Of a stretch of DNA of 6,539 nt, positions 1,150 through 6,539 are shown one piece after another. Numbering within the stretch: the stretch's first letter is position 1; the number at the start of each line of letters is the position of its first letter. The position numbers and the translations under genes are program-made. The notes under the pieces are model-generated. The model made no database searches. It was not told where the DNA came from and saw only the letters and a program-made list of their open reading frames with translations. Source of the DNA: Deltaproteobacteria bacterium. GTDB taxonomy: Bacteria > Bdellovibrionota > Bdellovibrionia > JABDDW01. The DNA lies in contig JABDDW010000062.1 in assembly GCA_013287405.1 (NCBI GenBank), forward strand, positions 2,212-8,750. Direction: 5' to 3'.

Positions 1150-2432
1150 ATTTTGTCTTGGATAAAATCGGAAAATTAGCCACCCTCAAAGGAGCTGTTC
1201 AGAAAAAAGGGCGAAACATAAATTATGAAGACTTAAGTATAATAAACGACGCTTGTCTCGTGGTGGGTGGCGGCCCTGGGAAGAAATCCAAAATTCTTTG
1301 GGCCGGAGCTCGAAGTGAATTGCCCTCAACATTCAAAAAGTTCAAAAAAATAAGTGCTCAAGGAAGAATGGTCCTCCCGGGTTTTGTCGATAGTCATACT
1401 CACCTTATTTTTGCCGGCGACCGCTCCAATGAATTTGAAATGCGCCTTGCGGGGAGAACCTATCAAGAGATAGCTCGCCTTGGTGGAGGAATCACCAATT
1501 CAGTCAAAGCCACCCGTGATCTTTCTGCGGCCGAACTTTATAAGGTGGCCCTCCGGCGGGTTGAGAGTTTTTTAAATCAAGGGGTGACGACCATTGAAGT
1601 AAAATCTGGATACGGCCTGAGTTTTGAAAGTGAGAAAAAATGTCTTGAAGTGAGTGCAAAGTTAAAAAAGAGTCGCGCCACAATCCTTTCTACTTTTTTG
1701 GGCGCCCATGCAGTCGCAGAAGAGTTCAAGGGGCGAAAATCCCAGTACATAAGAGAAATCAGCCAAAATTGGCTCCCCAAATTTCATAACCTCTGTGACT
1801 TTGTGGATATTTTTTTGGACGAGGGTTATTTTAACCAAGAGGATGCAAGAGCTTTGTTCCAATCGGCGCAAAAATTGGGGATCCCCACAAAAATTCATGC
1901 TGATGAATTGGTTTTGACTGGCGGGACCGAAATCGCCGTGGAATTTTCAAGTCTTTCTGCCGATCATTTGTTGAAAATATCAGATAAAGAAGTGAACCTT
2001 TTGGCAAGCCATGAAGTGACGGCGACTCTTCTCCCCATCACTGCTTTTTTTCTTAAAACAAAGTATGCACCCGCCCGAAAGCTTCTCGATCAAGGGGCCC
2101 GTGTGGCTTTGGCCTCGGATTTTAATCCGGGAACCTCGCCCTGCCAGGATATTTCACTGGTAGGGACTCTCTCGGCTCTTGAAATGGGGATGCGTATTGA
2201 GGAGATTGTGGTGGGCCTAAGTCTGAATGGTGCCTATGCTCTTGGTCTTCAGAAAACAAAAGGGGCCCTAATCGAAGGCTATGATTCTGATTTCTTTGTG
2301 GTCGACGGTGAAAACCCCGCTAAACTTTTCTACGAATTTGGAAGCGGCCGCCCACCTGTAAAAGTCTTTTCTTCAGGAGAGTGGCTTGATGAATCTTACG
2401 CGACGCGCATGAATCTAATGGAGAAAAAATAG
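1146..2432 (+). CDS. hutI: Imidazolonepropionase
   Basis: This metal-dependent amidohydrolase opens the ring of 4-imidazolone-5-propionate to give N-formimino-L-glutamate, the third step of histidine degradation, in the cytosol. The 428 residues match the usual family length (about 405-425). The N-terminal beta-sandwich part is followed by the TIM-barrel metal motif [13 protein letters not shown] (His84, His86). Next come the substrate-side stretch [14 protein letters not shown] (about 111-124), EVKSGYGL (151-158), STFLGAHAV (His188), KIHADEL (His251 as metal ligand, Glu254 as the expected catalytic acid/base), SADHL (His274) and [10 protein letters not shown] (Asp325 as metal ligand). All expected catalytic residues are present. 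The ATG overlaps the hutU stop as ATGA and has no strong Shine-Dalgarno site of its own, which suggests coupling to hutU translation. If the hutU frameshift is real, early termination at 359 could lower hutI translation. Identification is very secure. Confidence 0.96.
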
Positions 2433-2453
2433 TTCCGTCGTGTAATCTTTTCT

Positions 2454-2483
2454 CTCACACATGCCTTTGGTTTTTGCTACAAG
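2454..2483 (+). promoter_or_regulatory. Weak sigma70-like promoter candidate upstream of the prkA-like operon
   Basis: A CTCACA hexamer (2454-2459) lies 18 bases before TACAAG (2478-2483), which has a TG dinucleotide one base upstream (2475-2476), as in extended -10 promoters. Each hexamer matches consensus at four of six positions. The gap after hutI and the change of function imply a promoter somewhere in 2433-2620. This is only the best match by eye and would give a 5' leader of about 150 bases. Confidence 0.22.
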
Positions 2484-2502
2484 CACTTCAATCAAAAGTG
2501 TT
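2482..2502 (+). repeat. Short hairpin in the hutI/prkA-like gap
   Basis: AGCACTT (2482-2488) can pair with AAGTGTT (2496-2502) around a 7-base loop, with one G-T wobble. There is no T tract after it, so it is a poor candidate for an intrinsic terminator of the hut operon. It may be an operator-like element or chance. Confidence 0.3.
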
Positions 2503-2524
2503 GGAGGGTAGTGGGTTCTAGTTA

Positions 2525-2539
2525 CGAGATCGATTCTCG
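2525..2539 (+). repeat. Perfect 5-bp inverted repeat (possible operator)
   Basis: CGAGA and TCTCG flank a 5-base TCGAT spacer, with an ATCGAT palindrome near the centre. It sits about 100 bases before the prkA-like start. There is no T tract, so a terminator is unlikely; a protein-binding site is possible but unproven. Confidence 0.3.
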
Positions 2540-2570
2540 GATCATTCACAGTATCATCCAATTGAATAAT

Positions 2571-2612
2571 TAGCACTCGGCAGTTCGGGAAGCTTTCTGT
2601 TTGGAAGTGCTA
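2571..2612 (+). repeat. 7-bp inverted repeat in the leader of the prkA-like gene
   Basis: TAGCACT (2571-2577) is the exact reverse complement of AGTGCTA (2606-2612), with 28 bases between the arms that include an AAGCTT palindrome. The element ends about 15 bases before the Shine-Dalgarno site of the next gene. It could therefore form an RNA hairpin that affects translation initiation, or a DNA operator. No known riboswitch class is recognised. Confidence 0.4.
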
Positions 2613-2626
2613 TAGGGATTAAAAGT

Positions 2627-2633
2627 AGGGGAG
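2627..2633 (+). promoter_or_regulatory. Strong ribosome binding site that fixes the prkA-like start
   Basis: AGGGGAG lies five bases before the ATG at 2639. This good site supports the start that includes the signal peptide, rather than a later cytosolic start such as Met53. Confidence 0.75.
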
Positions 2634-2638
2634 TATCA

Positions 2639-2737
2639 ATGGGATTTTCTAAATCTATTTCTGCATCAATTAAATTTTCATTGCCAATCTTATTTCTATT
2701 TTTGGCGACATGCTTTTTACCAAACCTTGTTTTTGCT
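2639..2737 (+). other. Signal peptide of the PrkA-like protein
   Basis: Residues 1-33 have a basic n-region (Lys5, Lys12), a long hydrophobic stretch rich in Leu, Phe and Ile, and an SPase I type VFA motif before acidic TDDGE. LATC at 22-25 resembles a lipobox, but it has Thr at -1 and the hydrophobic run continues beyond it, so lipoprotein processing is less likely. If uncleaved it would be an anchor with the body outside the cytoplasm. Confidence 0.75.
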
Positions 2738-5170
2738 ACCGACGATGGTGAACAGTGTGGAGAGCGTCTGGCTAATGTCACTTCTGAAAACGACATGGCC
2801 AAAATGATTCGCGTGATTGTCGGCGAAGAAAATAAAGAAGCTTCAGAAGACTCCTCACATATCTTTCTAGAAAAACGCGCTCTCACAGATTTCTTGAAGG
2901 CAGATGATGAAAACTTAGTGCTCCGCGCCCCATTTACGGTCATGAACGCGGCTCAACGGATATTGGATTTAATCTATAGCCAAGGCGTGAAAAAGATAAA
3001 ACTTCCAATTACTGGAGAAGAAGTCGATTTTTATCCGTTTTTCAGTGAAGGCAACGCCATTACTAATGGGAAACTCATTGTCGGCAATGAGAAAGTGATT
3101 GCTCAGGTCGTAAATAACATCAGGGCCCAAGCCCAAGGAGACCGTTCCGCAGTGAGTATTCCCCTTCTCGAAGGCTCCCACGGAACGGGAAAAACCGAAC
3201 TCTTAAAACTCTTGAGCATTGGTGTCGAGAACCTTACGGCAAAATCCGATTCTAAATTTGCGAACTACACCTATTCATGGGTTCGCCTTGGAGAAATCCC
3301 ATCCCTTCATCGCTTTATTCCGTCCACAAATGAGGGGGGATCCAGAGTTTATGCAGACCTAGGTTCTCCTCTCGGGGACTCCCCCGTTGTTCTTTTTCCT
3401 CCGGAGATTCAGAAAGCCCTTATCAAAAAATCGACCAAGACCGTTCAGGCCCTTGTTTCAATGGATCCAACGCCAGTGCTGAAGCTTGATCCCATTTCAT
3501 TTTTTATTCGATCGCAAATAGTACAACACTACTCAGAGAAGCGTGGGCATCCGTTAAGCGCTAATGAAATAGTTGAAGTTTTAAATGATCACGTAGTTGT
3601 TCGTAGACAAGTCATTGGGAGGACCTACGGGAATATGCCTCTCATTGAAAAACAACCCGATGATTTAGATATCGCCGGTCTCTTTATGACGCCAAATCCT
3701 GTTGTGCGATTTGCCTCCGGTGAAGGCCCCACTCACCCCATGGCGTGGTACTTCAATGGCAAAATATTAAGTGGGCATGGTAACGCAATTCAGTTTGACG
3801 AACTTCTTAGAAATCCTCCGGCCTTAAGAGACATGCTTTTGGGTGTATTTGAGTCTCGCGAGGTGTCCGTCGGTGGCGCTCAGACCGTCCCTTTTGATCC
3901 CGTAATCCTTGCTTCCACCAATTCGGCAAATATCCAGGAAGTAAAACAACAAAAAAATGGTACGGGGGATGCAATACTTGACCGTCTTACTCCAATGCCC
4001 ATGCGATGGAGCGCTCTTCCAAGCCAAATCATCCAACTCTTGATCTTAGGAAAACAAAAAGAAACTTATCAGCAACCCCTAAAAGAGGGGGAGGAACATC
4101 CTGTTACAGGAGGGAAGATATATGATCTGGTCCCCCGACAAGAAGGTTTAAATAGATTAGTGACCTCTGACTATAGATATCGAATATGGTTTGGATCAGG
4201 GGCCGATAAAGTAGAGGTTGCGCCACACACGCTTCTGATGATGTCAGAGATCATTGCCGCTTCCCGAATGAGGACCAACCCCGAGAAAGCGGCTCAAGTT
4301 TTTCAAGGTAAAATCGTCGGTTCAAATTTGCTGATCAATCCCATTGATCGATTACGCCTTTATGAGGGAACTCGCCCCGACGTGACCCGTGATGAGATTC
4401 GAGAATTAACGGAAGTCACAAAGCTTTTGAAAGAGGGTGAGTCGGGAATATCGGCCCGGGATGCCGGAAAGTGGCTCTCAAATGCCATCGCCGCTGCCCG
4501 AGGGGGTCGCGCTGGGAATACTCTCACTCCAGGAGTGGCTCTGGCAACGTTCCGAGAGATGTTAACTGACGAAGCCATTAGCTCACCGAGTAACAAGGTT
4601 CGACTTGAATGGCTCGGTTTGGCCGATGAGGTCGTGGCCCAAATGCTTATTCCACGGCTTGACGGCGACATTTCTAAAGCACTCGCCAACGGAGAGCAGG
4701 TCGTAAAATCGGCTTACTGGGATATTCTGCAAGAAATGTGGGCTATAAGTTTAAATCCTGAAGCCACAACTTATATTTCTGAAACCGGTGGGCAAGAGCG
4801 TCCCATCGATCGAGAAAGGTTGGCGGCGATTAAGGAAATTTATAAGCAAAAAAATGGGCGAACATTAAATGAAGGCCAAATTGCGGTTTTCCACGCCAAC
4901 CAAAAGGGGCTAGGCATAAAAGAAGTAGGAAGAGTTCCTGATGAGTCTCTTCTGGATGCCATTGCGCAGTACTACGCCAAGCTTACGGAACGTGTAGCCG
5001 GATTTGGTGCCCTCATAGAGTTCGAGCGCACTGGTATCGGTAACGATGATGTCAAGATGGCTCATACTTCCCTGATCTCTGCTCTTAAAGCGATGGGCTA
5101 CAACGAGGTTGCAGTCAAAGATGCATTGATGCTCATCAACGATCAACGGTCAAGAAATAGAATAAATTAA
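2639..5170 (+). CDS. Exported PrkA-family AAA+ protein (putative serine protein kinase / ATPase)
   Basis: PrkA/YeaG proteins are AAA+ ATPases reported to act as serine protein kinases in bacterial stress responses, normally cytosolic and about 630-645 residues. This one has 843. Residues 1-33 look like a Sec signal peptide: Lys5 and Lys12, a hydrophobic core at about 13-32, and a likely cut after VFA (33/34). The AAA+ motifs follow: Walker A GSHGTGKT (179-186), Walker B AIQFDE (383-388), sensor-1 VILASTN (422-428) and a possible arginine finger in DAILDRL (Arg449). PrkA-like landmarks include APHTL (528-532), GISARDAGKWLSNAI (603-617), an IDRERL stretch (723-728) resembling YeaG FDRESL, and a C-terminal AMGYNEVAVKDAL segment (818-830) matching YeaG's end. 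Extra length comes from the N-terminus and an insertion at about 470-525. The mature part has a single Cys (40). A shared operon with the next exported gene is likely. Family is fairly secure; kinase activity and location are inferred. Confidence 0.82.
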   Translation: MGFSKSISASIKFSLPILFLFLATCFLPNLVFATDDGEQCGERLANVTSENDMAKMIRVIVGEENKEASEDSSHIFLEKRALTDFLKADDENLVLRAPFTVMNAAQRILDLIYSQGVKKIKLPITGEEVDFYPFFSEGNAITNGKLIVGNEKVIAQVVNNIRAQAQGDRSAVSIPLLEGSHGTGKTELLKLLSIGVENLTAKSDSKFANYTYSWVRLGEIPSLHRFIPSTNEGGSRVYADLGSPLGDSPVVLFPPEIQKALIKKSTKTVQALVSMDPTPVLKLDPISFFIRSQIVQHYSEKRGHPLSANEIVEVLNDHVVVRRQVIGRTYGNMPLIEKQPDDLDIAGLFMTPNPVVRFASGEGPTHPMAWYFNGKILSGHGNAIQFDELLRNPPALRDMLLGVFESREVSVGGAQTVPFDPVILASTNSANIQEVKQQKNGTGDAILDRLTPMPMRWSALPSQIIQLLILGKQKETYQQPLKEGEEHPVTGGKIYDLVPRQEGLNRLVTSDYRYRIWFGSGADKVEVAPHTLLMMSEIIAASRMRTNPEKAAQVFQGKIVGSNLLINPIDRLRLYEGTRPDVTRDEIRELTEVTKLLKEGESGISARDAGKWLSNAIAAARGGRAGNTLTPGVALATFREMLTDEAISSPSNKVRLEWLGLADEVVAQMLIPRLDGDISKALANGEQVVKSAYWDILQEMWAISLNPEATTYISETGGQERPIDRERLAAIKEIYKQKNGRTLNEGQIAVFHANQKGLGIKEVGRVPDESLLDAIAQYYAKLTERVAGFGALIEFERTGIGNDDVKMAHTSLISALKAMGYNEVAVKDALMLINDQRSRNRIN

Positions 5171-5186: not shown

Positions 5187-5191
5187 AGGAG
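5187..5191 (+). promoter_or_regulatory. Ribosome binding site choosing ATG 5197 over GTG 5191
   Basis: AGGAG ends five bases before ATG 5197. A second purine-rich site, GGAGAG (5180-5185), lies five bases before an in-frame GTG at 5191. The two starts differ by only two residues (Val/Met-Arg), so the signal peptide is the same either way. ATG is preferred for its codon and better Shine-Dalgarno match. Confidence 0.6.
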
Positions 5192-5196
5192 TGAGA

Positions 5197-5289
5197 ATGG
5201 GCTCTAACAAAATCCTCAATCTAATAGGAAAGTCTTCTGCGGCTTTGTTAGGTTGTATTATTGCCCTGAACTCCGCTCAAAGCGTTGCG
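5197..5289 (+). other. Signal peptide of the downstream exported protein
   Basis: Residues 1-31 comprise a short basic n-region, a hydrophobic core (AALLGCIIAL, 15-24) and an AQSVA motif giving a Ser-X-Ala cut before Gly32. The following mature start is rich in Lys, Ser and Arg. Confidence 0.7.
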
Positions 5290-6539
5290 GGAAGTAGAAA
5301 ATCTGGCAAGACATCTAAAGACTGTTTGAATGCGCTTGGAGATTTGAAAAAAGAAGGGCAGCCGCAGAGACCAGTTGATTTTGATCCTGTAATCAGTGTG
5401 CTTAGCGGTTCTGCAGTCTACTCAGTTCTGAGAGAAGAAAGGGGTGGAGACAAACCCGGCCTATATCGAAAAACTCAAGAAGGTTGGAAGCTTCATCTCC
5501 CTGGACAAATTTTAATGGATTCAAGGGGGATCTCCTTTGTCCACCAACTCGAAATTACACAAAGAGACCAAAAAGATTATGCTCTTGTTGTCGATAACGG
5601 AAAGCTTTTTCTCATCACTCATTCGACTGATTTAGAAAAGCCAGATACCTACATTCATTTCGGAAGTAACTCCTCCCCTTTGTTTGAAATAGGTTCAATG
5701 CAACGGCGCTATCTTCCTCCAATTCAAAGCACTGATGATGTCAGCATCTATCAAGATGGAATGGATTCAAAAGGGGGACAAGTCATCTTGGTTTCTATTA
5801 AATTGTCTGGCACTCAAGCTGTAGGTCAGGGAATGACTTTTGCTTTTGAAGTTCTTCCCAACCCATCTGATCCTGGAGTGAAGATTTTTGGTAAACCACT
5901 TGTTTTGGATTATGAATTTCATGACTCAAAGATCTTAAGCGAGATGGTTTCCACCAAAGACAACGAGAAATGGCTTTATTCAAAAATTCTTATTGAGCAG
6001 ACCGGGAGCCAGGATTTCTCCTATTTCGGAAGTCATCTGGAGCATGTTAAATCCACGGTGGCACAATTTATCGATTCGCTTTTATCGTCTGGTTTCACTA
6101 GCCCTGTGGACCAAAACAGCGCAAAACCTGTGGTTCATTTTAACTGGACAACTCAGAAGGCTATAAAGAGTCTTCCCGTCTCTAACAATCTTACGGGCCG
6201 AGATGGCACTGTCGTTCTGCAGAATTACAACATTGGTGCAGGCAATCCCACGTTCACTATATTTTTCGGCAAAAATGAGAAAATCAATTCCGGAGGGACC
6301 ATAGACCTTACGTCGGAGGGAAATGCTGCCGTTTGGAGCGGCGAAAGTACTACAAATAGAGGAACGGCCGCATTTCTGTCTGATGGAAACCTTTTCATTG
6401 AAACGCCAATGAACTCCGGTGAATTTGCCCACGTCAACTTGGGTTCTTTAGGGAAATTTCTGCAACCCTTTGGTTATGGAAATCATTCGGGTCATGAGAT
6501 TCCCCGGGATGTGAGCTTCTATTATATTGGTATTAGAGC
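5197..6539 (+). CDS. Exported protein of unknown function, beta-rich, 3' end outside window
   Basis: The frame is open from ATG 5197 to the window edge (447 complete codons plus two bases). I do not recognise a family. Residues 1-31 look like a Sec signal peptide: Lys5 and Lys12, a hydrophobic core at about 14-25, and a likely cut after SVA (29-31). LLGC (17-20) is a weak lipobox alternative. The visible mature chain has one Cys (43) and many short alternating hydrophobic stretches with Gly/Asp/Asn turns, suggesting beta structure. Two stretches resemble each other: YALVVDNGKLFLIT (128-141), with FGS at 155-157, and TAAFLSDGNLFIET (390-403), with LGS at 415-417. This may indicate repeated blades, as in a beta-propeller; that is inference only. 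It starts 26 bases after the PrkA-like gene with no terminator between, so the two are probably co-transcribed and may act together outside the cytoplasm. Confidence 0.85.
   Translation, partial: MGSNKILNLIGKSSAALLGCIIALNSAQSVAGSRKSGKTSKDCLNALGDLKKEGQPQRPVDFDPVISVLSGSAVYSVLREERGGDKPGLYRKTQEGWKLHLPGQILMDSRGISFVHQLEITQRDQKDYALVVDNGKLFLITHSTDLEKPDTYIHFGSNSSPLFEIGSMQRRYLPPIQSTDDVSIYQDGMDSKGGQVILVSIKLSGTQAVGQGMTFAFEVLPNPSDPGVKIFGKPLVLDYEFHDSKILSEMVSTKDNEKWLYSKILIEQTGSQDFSYFGSHLEHVKSTVAQFIDSLLSSGFTSPVDQNSAKPVVHFNWTTQKAIKSLPVSNNLTGRDGTVVLQNYNIGAGNPTFTIFFGKNEKINSGGTIDLTSEGNAAVWSGESTTNRGTAAFLSDGNLFIETPMNSGEFAHVNLGSLGKFLQPFGYGNHSGHEIPRDVSFYYIGIR

Follow-up and report, generated by a model that had tools for sequence, protein, structure and literature searches.

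In Bdellovibrio bacteriovorus, a PrkA-type kinase and SpoVR are reported, together with an unnamed protein, as products of a putative operon (bd0228-bd0231), and the same report links SpoVR to the spore cortex in Bacillus and Myxococcus (PMC5430801). The activity of PrkA as a kinase or a protease is disputed: the B. subtilis protein was earlier reported as a weak ATP-dependent protease, while one canonical PrkA is described as having negligible protease and kinase activity, forming ATP-induced oligomers and being required for sporulation (PMC13001217). We recognised no description of an exported PrkA, SpoVR or DUF444 set among the papers listed in searches of the open-access literature.

The window, the whole stretch of 6,539 nucleotides analysed here, contains on the forward strand an ORF with an ATG start (2639-5170) that encodes a PrkA-like AAA+ protein of 843 amino acid residues, which is predicted to be exported and is named here ePrkA. 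A Shine-Dalgarno site, AGGGGAG (2627-2633, forward strand), lies five nucleotides ahead of the ATG, and the protein begins with a signal-peptide-like N-terminus of about 34 residues (2639-2740, forward strand). It contains K5 and K13 and a hydrophobic core, closes near residue 34 in an A-x-A-like putative cleavage site and is followed by acidic residues. Both features had been pointed out in a first-pass annotation and were seen again here. The sole cysteine downstream of the hydrophobic segment, Cys40 (codon 2756-2758, forward strand), is near-invariant in the 22 rows of the alignment. A scan of window positions 2400-2700 found no sigma-70 promoter or terminator. Further upstream, the urocanase gene hutU is broken, according to Pfam, into two overlapping frames (9-359 and 325-1149) near a run of eight G, through either a true frameshift or a mistake in the assembly, and it is followed by hutI (1146-2432).

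The PrkA-type assignment of the first-pass annotation, for which a search with PrkA profiles had been proposed, holds: the PrkA C-terminal domain PF06798 matches residues 570-830 (4346-5128, forward strand) with 41.5 bits and AAA_PrkA PF08298 matches with 37.6 bits, its best stretch being residues 366-454, both over the Pfam cut-off of 25. The NCBIfam PrkA equivalog NF011999 gave 21.9 bits, below its cut-off of 576, and therefore ePrkA is, by profile score, a distant PrkA-type protein and not an equivalog. The alignment places the Walker A motif GSHGTGKT at residues 179-186 (3173-3196), the Walker B motif FDE at residues 386-388 (3794-3802), the sensor-1 Asn428 (3920-3922) and an Arg-finger-like Arg449 (3983-3985), all on the forward strand. 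These motifs had been called intact from the single sequence, and G179, T183, G184, K185, D387, E388, N428 and R449 are invariant across the 22 aligned proteins. In a larger set of 48 ePrkA rows (27 loci and 21 database proteins; L008 is too short and informative for Walker A only), GK[ST] is present in every row, and EE replaces DE in the Walker B of three of them (L060, L061 and L062).

Relatives were read in nine loci of public metagenome-assembled genomes and in further loci from a scan of the phylum. The nine loci came from a profile scan of genome contigs with alignment A1, and their records are labelled Bdellovibrionaceae, Bacteriovoracaceae, Bdellovibrionales, Bdellovibrionota, 'Deltaproteobacteria' or 'bacterium'; an earlier contig scan with a single protein query gave no confirmed relative. 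The phylum scan covered the 368 genomes of the phylum to which the L001 genome belongs, Bdellovibrionota according to the record lineage, with two candidates scored per genome. Strong ePrkA matches were found in 26 genomes, with 320 bits or more (the lowest in G254); the next genome gave 63 bits, and matches weaker than those of the 26 were taken to be canonical PrkA or AAA proteins of other kinds. The L007 record is labelled Myxococcota, yet its genome is within the 368. These results suggest that ePrkA is restricted to one phylum, as far as an insensitive contig scan tells. One homologue, P0033, is labelled as a Calothrix metagenome-assembled genome, which may be misbinned. No relatives were found on plasmids by tblastn or on viral contigs by scan, and there was no cultured carrier among the named matches listed.

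Canonical PrkA, DUF444 and SpoVR genes lie on one contig in all nine genomes behind L001-L009, where the exported-type protein comes in addition to a canonical copy; the canonical PrkAs gave 282-305 bits and occupy frames of 686-737 residues in eight genomes, the ninth lying at a contig end. In a tree of 37 proteins, the exported PrkAs (25) form one deep clade apart from the canonical ones (11), the separating branches having support of 100/100, and their end branches (0.27-1.89, against 0.1-0.33 in the canonical proteins) indicate faster evolution. The secreted PrkA lineage with kept motifs that had been proposed from the window is thus found as a clade with signal-peptide-like N-termini. A third PrkA-like protein in G004 (L091:2124-4328), with 734 residues, a PF06798 match of 126 bits and no hydrophobic N-terminus, falls with the canonical PrkAs, its own branch being very long.

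The protein is better placed in a set of three, which the first-pass annotation had missed: the exported PrkA clade with its ATPase motifs stands, while the lone-protein reading was dropped in favour of a multi-protein system on account of the neighbours in relatives, a giant protein and a fusion protein. By homology to the second genes of other loci, the window holds the first 447 residues of the giant (5197-6537, forward strand), which leaves the window end. Its ATG at 5197 is preceded by AGGAG at 5187-5191, and a GTG at 5191 lies in the same frame. The fragment matches 17 other second genes, best that of L001 (32.7% identity over 459 columns, E 4e-65), and no Pfam family is above cut-off in it. 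A following gene on the same strand is readable in 24 of the 27 ePrkA loci, counting that of the window, and in 21 of the 24 it belongs to a single family of giants; L063, L068 and L070, where the next genes are not giants, are outside that count. Giants have about 1,800-2,200 residues and carry a second AAA domain, in which the Walker Lys, a DD pair and an Arg are kept in 12 of 12, with a score below every Pfam cut-off (best 26.4 bits against 27). Tentatively, they also have a beta-rich, perhaps propeller-like, part, and the fold of their N-terminal region is equally tentative.

The third gene lies outside the window and was read in relatives, where its product joins SpoVR to DUF444 (YeaH/YhbH) in one fusion protein. 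All 11 third-gene proteins scanned have the two domains above the Pfam cut-off; the fusion alignment A3 has 12 rows, its additional row L076 being outside the Pfam scan. The SpoVR HxxxH and Glu are kept in 12 of 12 and the MIDAS residues in 11 or 12 of 12. Seven canonical SpoVRs share 24 invariant charged, His or Cys positions that no more than half of the exported SpoVRs retain, so the chemistry of the exported ones may differ from the canonical. A PDB sequence search with one fusion protein gave no match at E 0.1. The full order ePrkA-giant-fusion was found in ten loci (L004, L007, L062, L064, L065, L066, L067, L071, L072 and L076), and the L006 locus ends inside the third gene. In L069 the giant is divided over two ORFs, and in L063 the giant and the fusion are oriented opposite to ePrkA. 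In L070 and L068 the fusion comes immediately after ePrkA, in L068 divided over two ORFs; these two form a sister pair (G268 and G264) with no giant found in either genome, and the giant may thus be dispensable. In L062 the fusion is followed on the same strand by an ORF of 1295 residues (13597-17484) with a seemingly hydrophobic N-terminus, a possible fourth member of the system. Two proteins, P0029 (692 residues) and P0030 (628 residues), have a DUF444-like part ahead of SpoVR, opposite to the order in the exported fusion, and may be gene-calling artefacts.

Across the 368 genomes, the giant was found in 26 and the fusion clearly in 28 (best match of 247 bits or more). Two extra fusion fragments, in G269 (161 bits) and G344 (152 bits), score barely over the canonical DUF444 matches (145 downwards), and the co-occurrence tally used the 30 genomes that include them. 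All three parts occur together in 22 of the 368 genomes, a co-occurrence whose Fisher statistics ignore kinship. Four genomes have ePrkA without the giant (G008, G264, G268 and G344) and four the giant without ePrkA (G181, G276, G293 and G362). Apparent double copies were seen in G343 (contigs C265 and C326, two ePrkA and two giant matches) and G293 (C61 and C74, two giants).

As a proxy for export we used a 12-residue segment with a mean hydropathy of at least 1.7 within the first 110 residues. The ePrkA rows show it in 42 of 45 cases, and every giant (21 of 21) and every fusion (12 of 12) has it. None of the 11 canonical PrkAs does, nor do any of the 13 canonical rows of DUF444 or SpoVR, which represent 11 distinct proteins from six genomes (L040 and L055 being one locus). 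The 45 ePrkA rows comprise 24 loci and 21 database proteins, L001 and P0003 looking like one gene; L008, L060 and L069, cut or open at one end, were excluded. Since 74 of 121 other ORFs of these loci also carry such a segment, which is by itself not diagnostic, we put the weight on the contrast with the paralogues. The mean charge is +1.3 to +1.6 ahead of the segment and -0.6 to -0.9 behind it in ePrkA, giant and fusion, although the charge before exceeds that after it in only 36 of 45, 17 of 21 and 9 of 12 rows, respectively.

The first-pass annotation had asked whether signal peptides and Walker motifs are conserved together in homologues, and had named homologues starting downstream of the hydrophobic segment as the finding that would speak against export. 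That is not the pattern seen: the segment is present in 42 of 45 rows and GK[ST] in 48 of 48, and only P0007, P0009 and P0019 lack the segment. The called starts of P0007 and P0009 lie five and eight residues ahead of the conserved Cys, and in P0019 the entire N-terminal part is absent. Start codons with a loose Shine-Dalgarno-like match are found upstream of the segment in 25 of the 27 ePrkA loci. Among homologues found later, segment and Cys are both present in six of eight ePrkAs and six of six fusions, P0031 (that is, L007) and P0023 (90% identical to L064) not being independent of the earlier rows. The two ePrkAs without a clear segment as called are P0038 and P0031; along its length the latter shows 100% identity to L007, in whose DNA a GTG in the same frame and a hydrophobic stretch lie upstream. 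A lipoprotein reading is disfavoured, as a lipobox was found in 0 of 45 ePrkAs, 1 of 12 fusions and 1 of 21 giants.

The three proteins are poor in cysteine: ePrkA has 1.65, the giant 1.42 and the fusion 2.90 Cys per 1000 residues, compared with 7.63 and 6.89 for the canonical proteins; other ORFs of the loci bearing such a segment have a median of 6.1. A Cys lies at most 45 residues past the segment in all 42 segment-bearing ePrkAs (3.0 expected), a terminal-tail Cys is present in 12 of 12 fusions (1.5 expected) and a Cys in the last 30 residues in 11 of 11 complete giants (0.34 expected), all three expectations ignoring kinship. Near the N-terminus a Cys is found in only two of 21 giants, those of the window and L001 (1.6 expected). 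In 34 of the 42 ePrkAs just one Cys lies past the segment; with exactly one Cys in only three of 12 fusions and four of 21 giants, pairing by a simple scheme is unproven. The conserved tail cysteines of these otherwise Cys-poor proteins suggest disulfide links in an oxidising compartment.

On balance we favour, with somewhat better than even confidence, a three-gene system derived from the PrkA-YeaH-SpoVR set, exported through Sec-type signal peptides and working as an ATP-using remodelling machine. A duplicated PrkA-VWA-SpoVR set would have left the cytoplasm as each subunit gained such a signal peptide. The ePrkA would form the AAA+ ring that serves as motor, and the VWA domain of DUF444 would dock SpoVR, or a substrate of SpoVR, to this ring through its MIDAS, on the model of the VWA proteins in NorQ-NorD and similar AAA-VWA pairs. 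SpoVR would be the working domain, so that the exported form would join docking and working parts in one protein, and the giant would contribute a second AAA motor and its beta-rich, perhaps propeller-like, part. Cysteines in flexible tails may staple the subunits by disulfides in the oxidising compartment, and the machine would spend ATP on remodelling a target in the envelope or on the prey side; peptidoglycan is a candidate target in view of the link between SpoVR and the spore cortex. We hold more tentatively, as a distinct possibility short of an even chance, the specific form of a disulfide-stapled double-AAA+ envelope machine in Bdellovibrionota fed by external ATP, for example released from prey. 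We know of no ATP supply outside the bacterial cytoplasm, and the periplasm is thought to be ATP-free; nothing useful on ATP for Bdellovibrio was found among the papers listed in open-access searches. The ATP could come from prey or from some other supply, or might not be used at all.

This last option, an exported system that no longer uses ATP and keeps the motifs for structure, for nucleotide sensing or as relics, would fit a periplasm thought to lack ATP, the faster evolution of the exported PrkAs (end branches of 0.27-1.89 vs 0.1-0.33) and the EE for DE in three Walker B rows, but GK[ST] in 48 of 48 rows, the invariance of D387, E388, N428 and R449 in 22 rows and the retention of the Walker Lys, the DD pair and the Arg in all 12 AAA domains of the giant make it rather unlikely. 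We regard an ATP-using exported machine as the likeliest reading, since the motifs are preserved in two different ATPase domains.

The place of action could also be another cell, the proteins crossing the envelope into prey and acting in an ATP-rich cytoplasm there. The carrier phylum is known for predators, and ATP is available in prey, but subunits of 2,000 residues are awkward as cargo and the terminal cysteines suit an oxidising space, and we consider such delivery improbable. Lower still we place the N-terminal segments as membrane anchors of ATPase domains that remain cytoplasmic. Cleavage is putative, and the database entries P0007, P0009 and P0031 start downstream of the segment; against this, the mean charge in all three families, between +1.3 and +1.6 ahead of the segment and between -0.6 and -0.9 behind it, fits an N-in orientation, 25 of 27 loci have start codons with a loose Shine-Dalgarno-like match upstream of it, and Cys is scarce (1.4-2.9 per 1000 vs 6.9-7.6 in the canonical paralogues).

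If the exported machine is real, it would be a bacterial envelope AAA+ machine that arose through export of an entire duplicated PrkA-YeaH-SpoVR set. The need of AAA+ proteins for ATP outside the cytoplasm then becomes testable, in a system whose subunits all look exported and which has two ATPase domains with kept motifs. The exported copy may also reveal the role of the widespread and poorly understood PrkA-YeaH-SpoVR set, because it would act only on envelope or external targets. The families themselves are known; new to us are the predicted extracytoplasmic setting, the joining of SpoVR to DUF444 and the presence of a giant.

The lumen of the ER is supplied with ATP. Torsins, which have been called the only AAA+ proteins of the nuclear envelope and ER (PMC7175109), likewise lie beyond a membrane, in the ER lumen and nuclear envelope, but are eukaryotic and not PrkA-like. 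The MoxR-type pairs NorQ-NorD and CbbQ-CbbO combine AAA and VWA domains, both types being present in the exported set, and NorQ and CbbQ are among several AAA groups that the AAA core resembles, their fold rows being tied with those of MCM and sigma-54 activators; the exported set differs from these pairs in its PrkA-type sequence and its predicted extracytoplasmic location. The canonical PrkA-YhbH/YeaH(DUF444)-SpoVR/YcgB cluster has the same three domain families as the exported set and shares with it the Walker motifs, the SpoVR HxxxH and Glu and the VWA MIDAS. However, the canonical proteins have no N-terminal segment and more cysteines, and are encoded by separate genes in the order PrkA, DUF444, SpoVR, whereas the exported set has the segment and few cysteines, joins SpoVR and DUF444 in one protein in reversed order and includes an additional giant that carries a second AAA domain.
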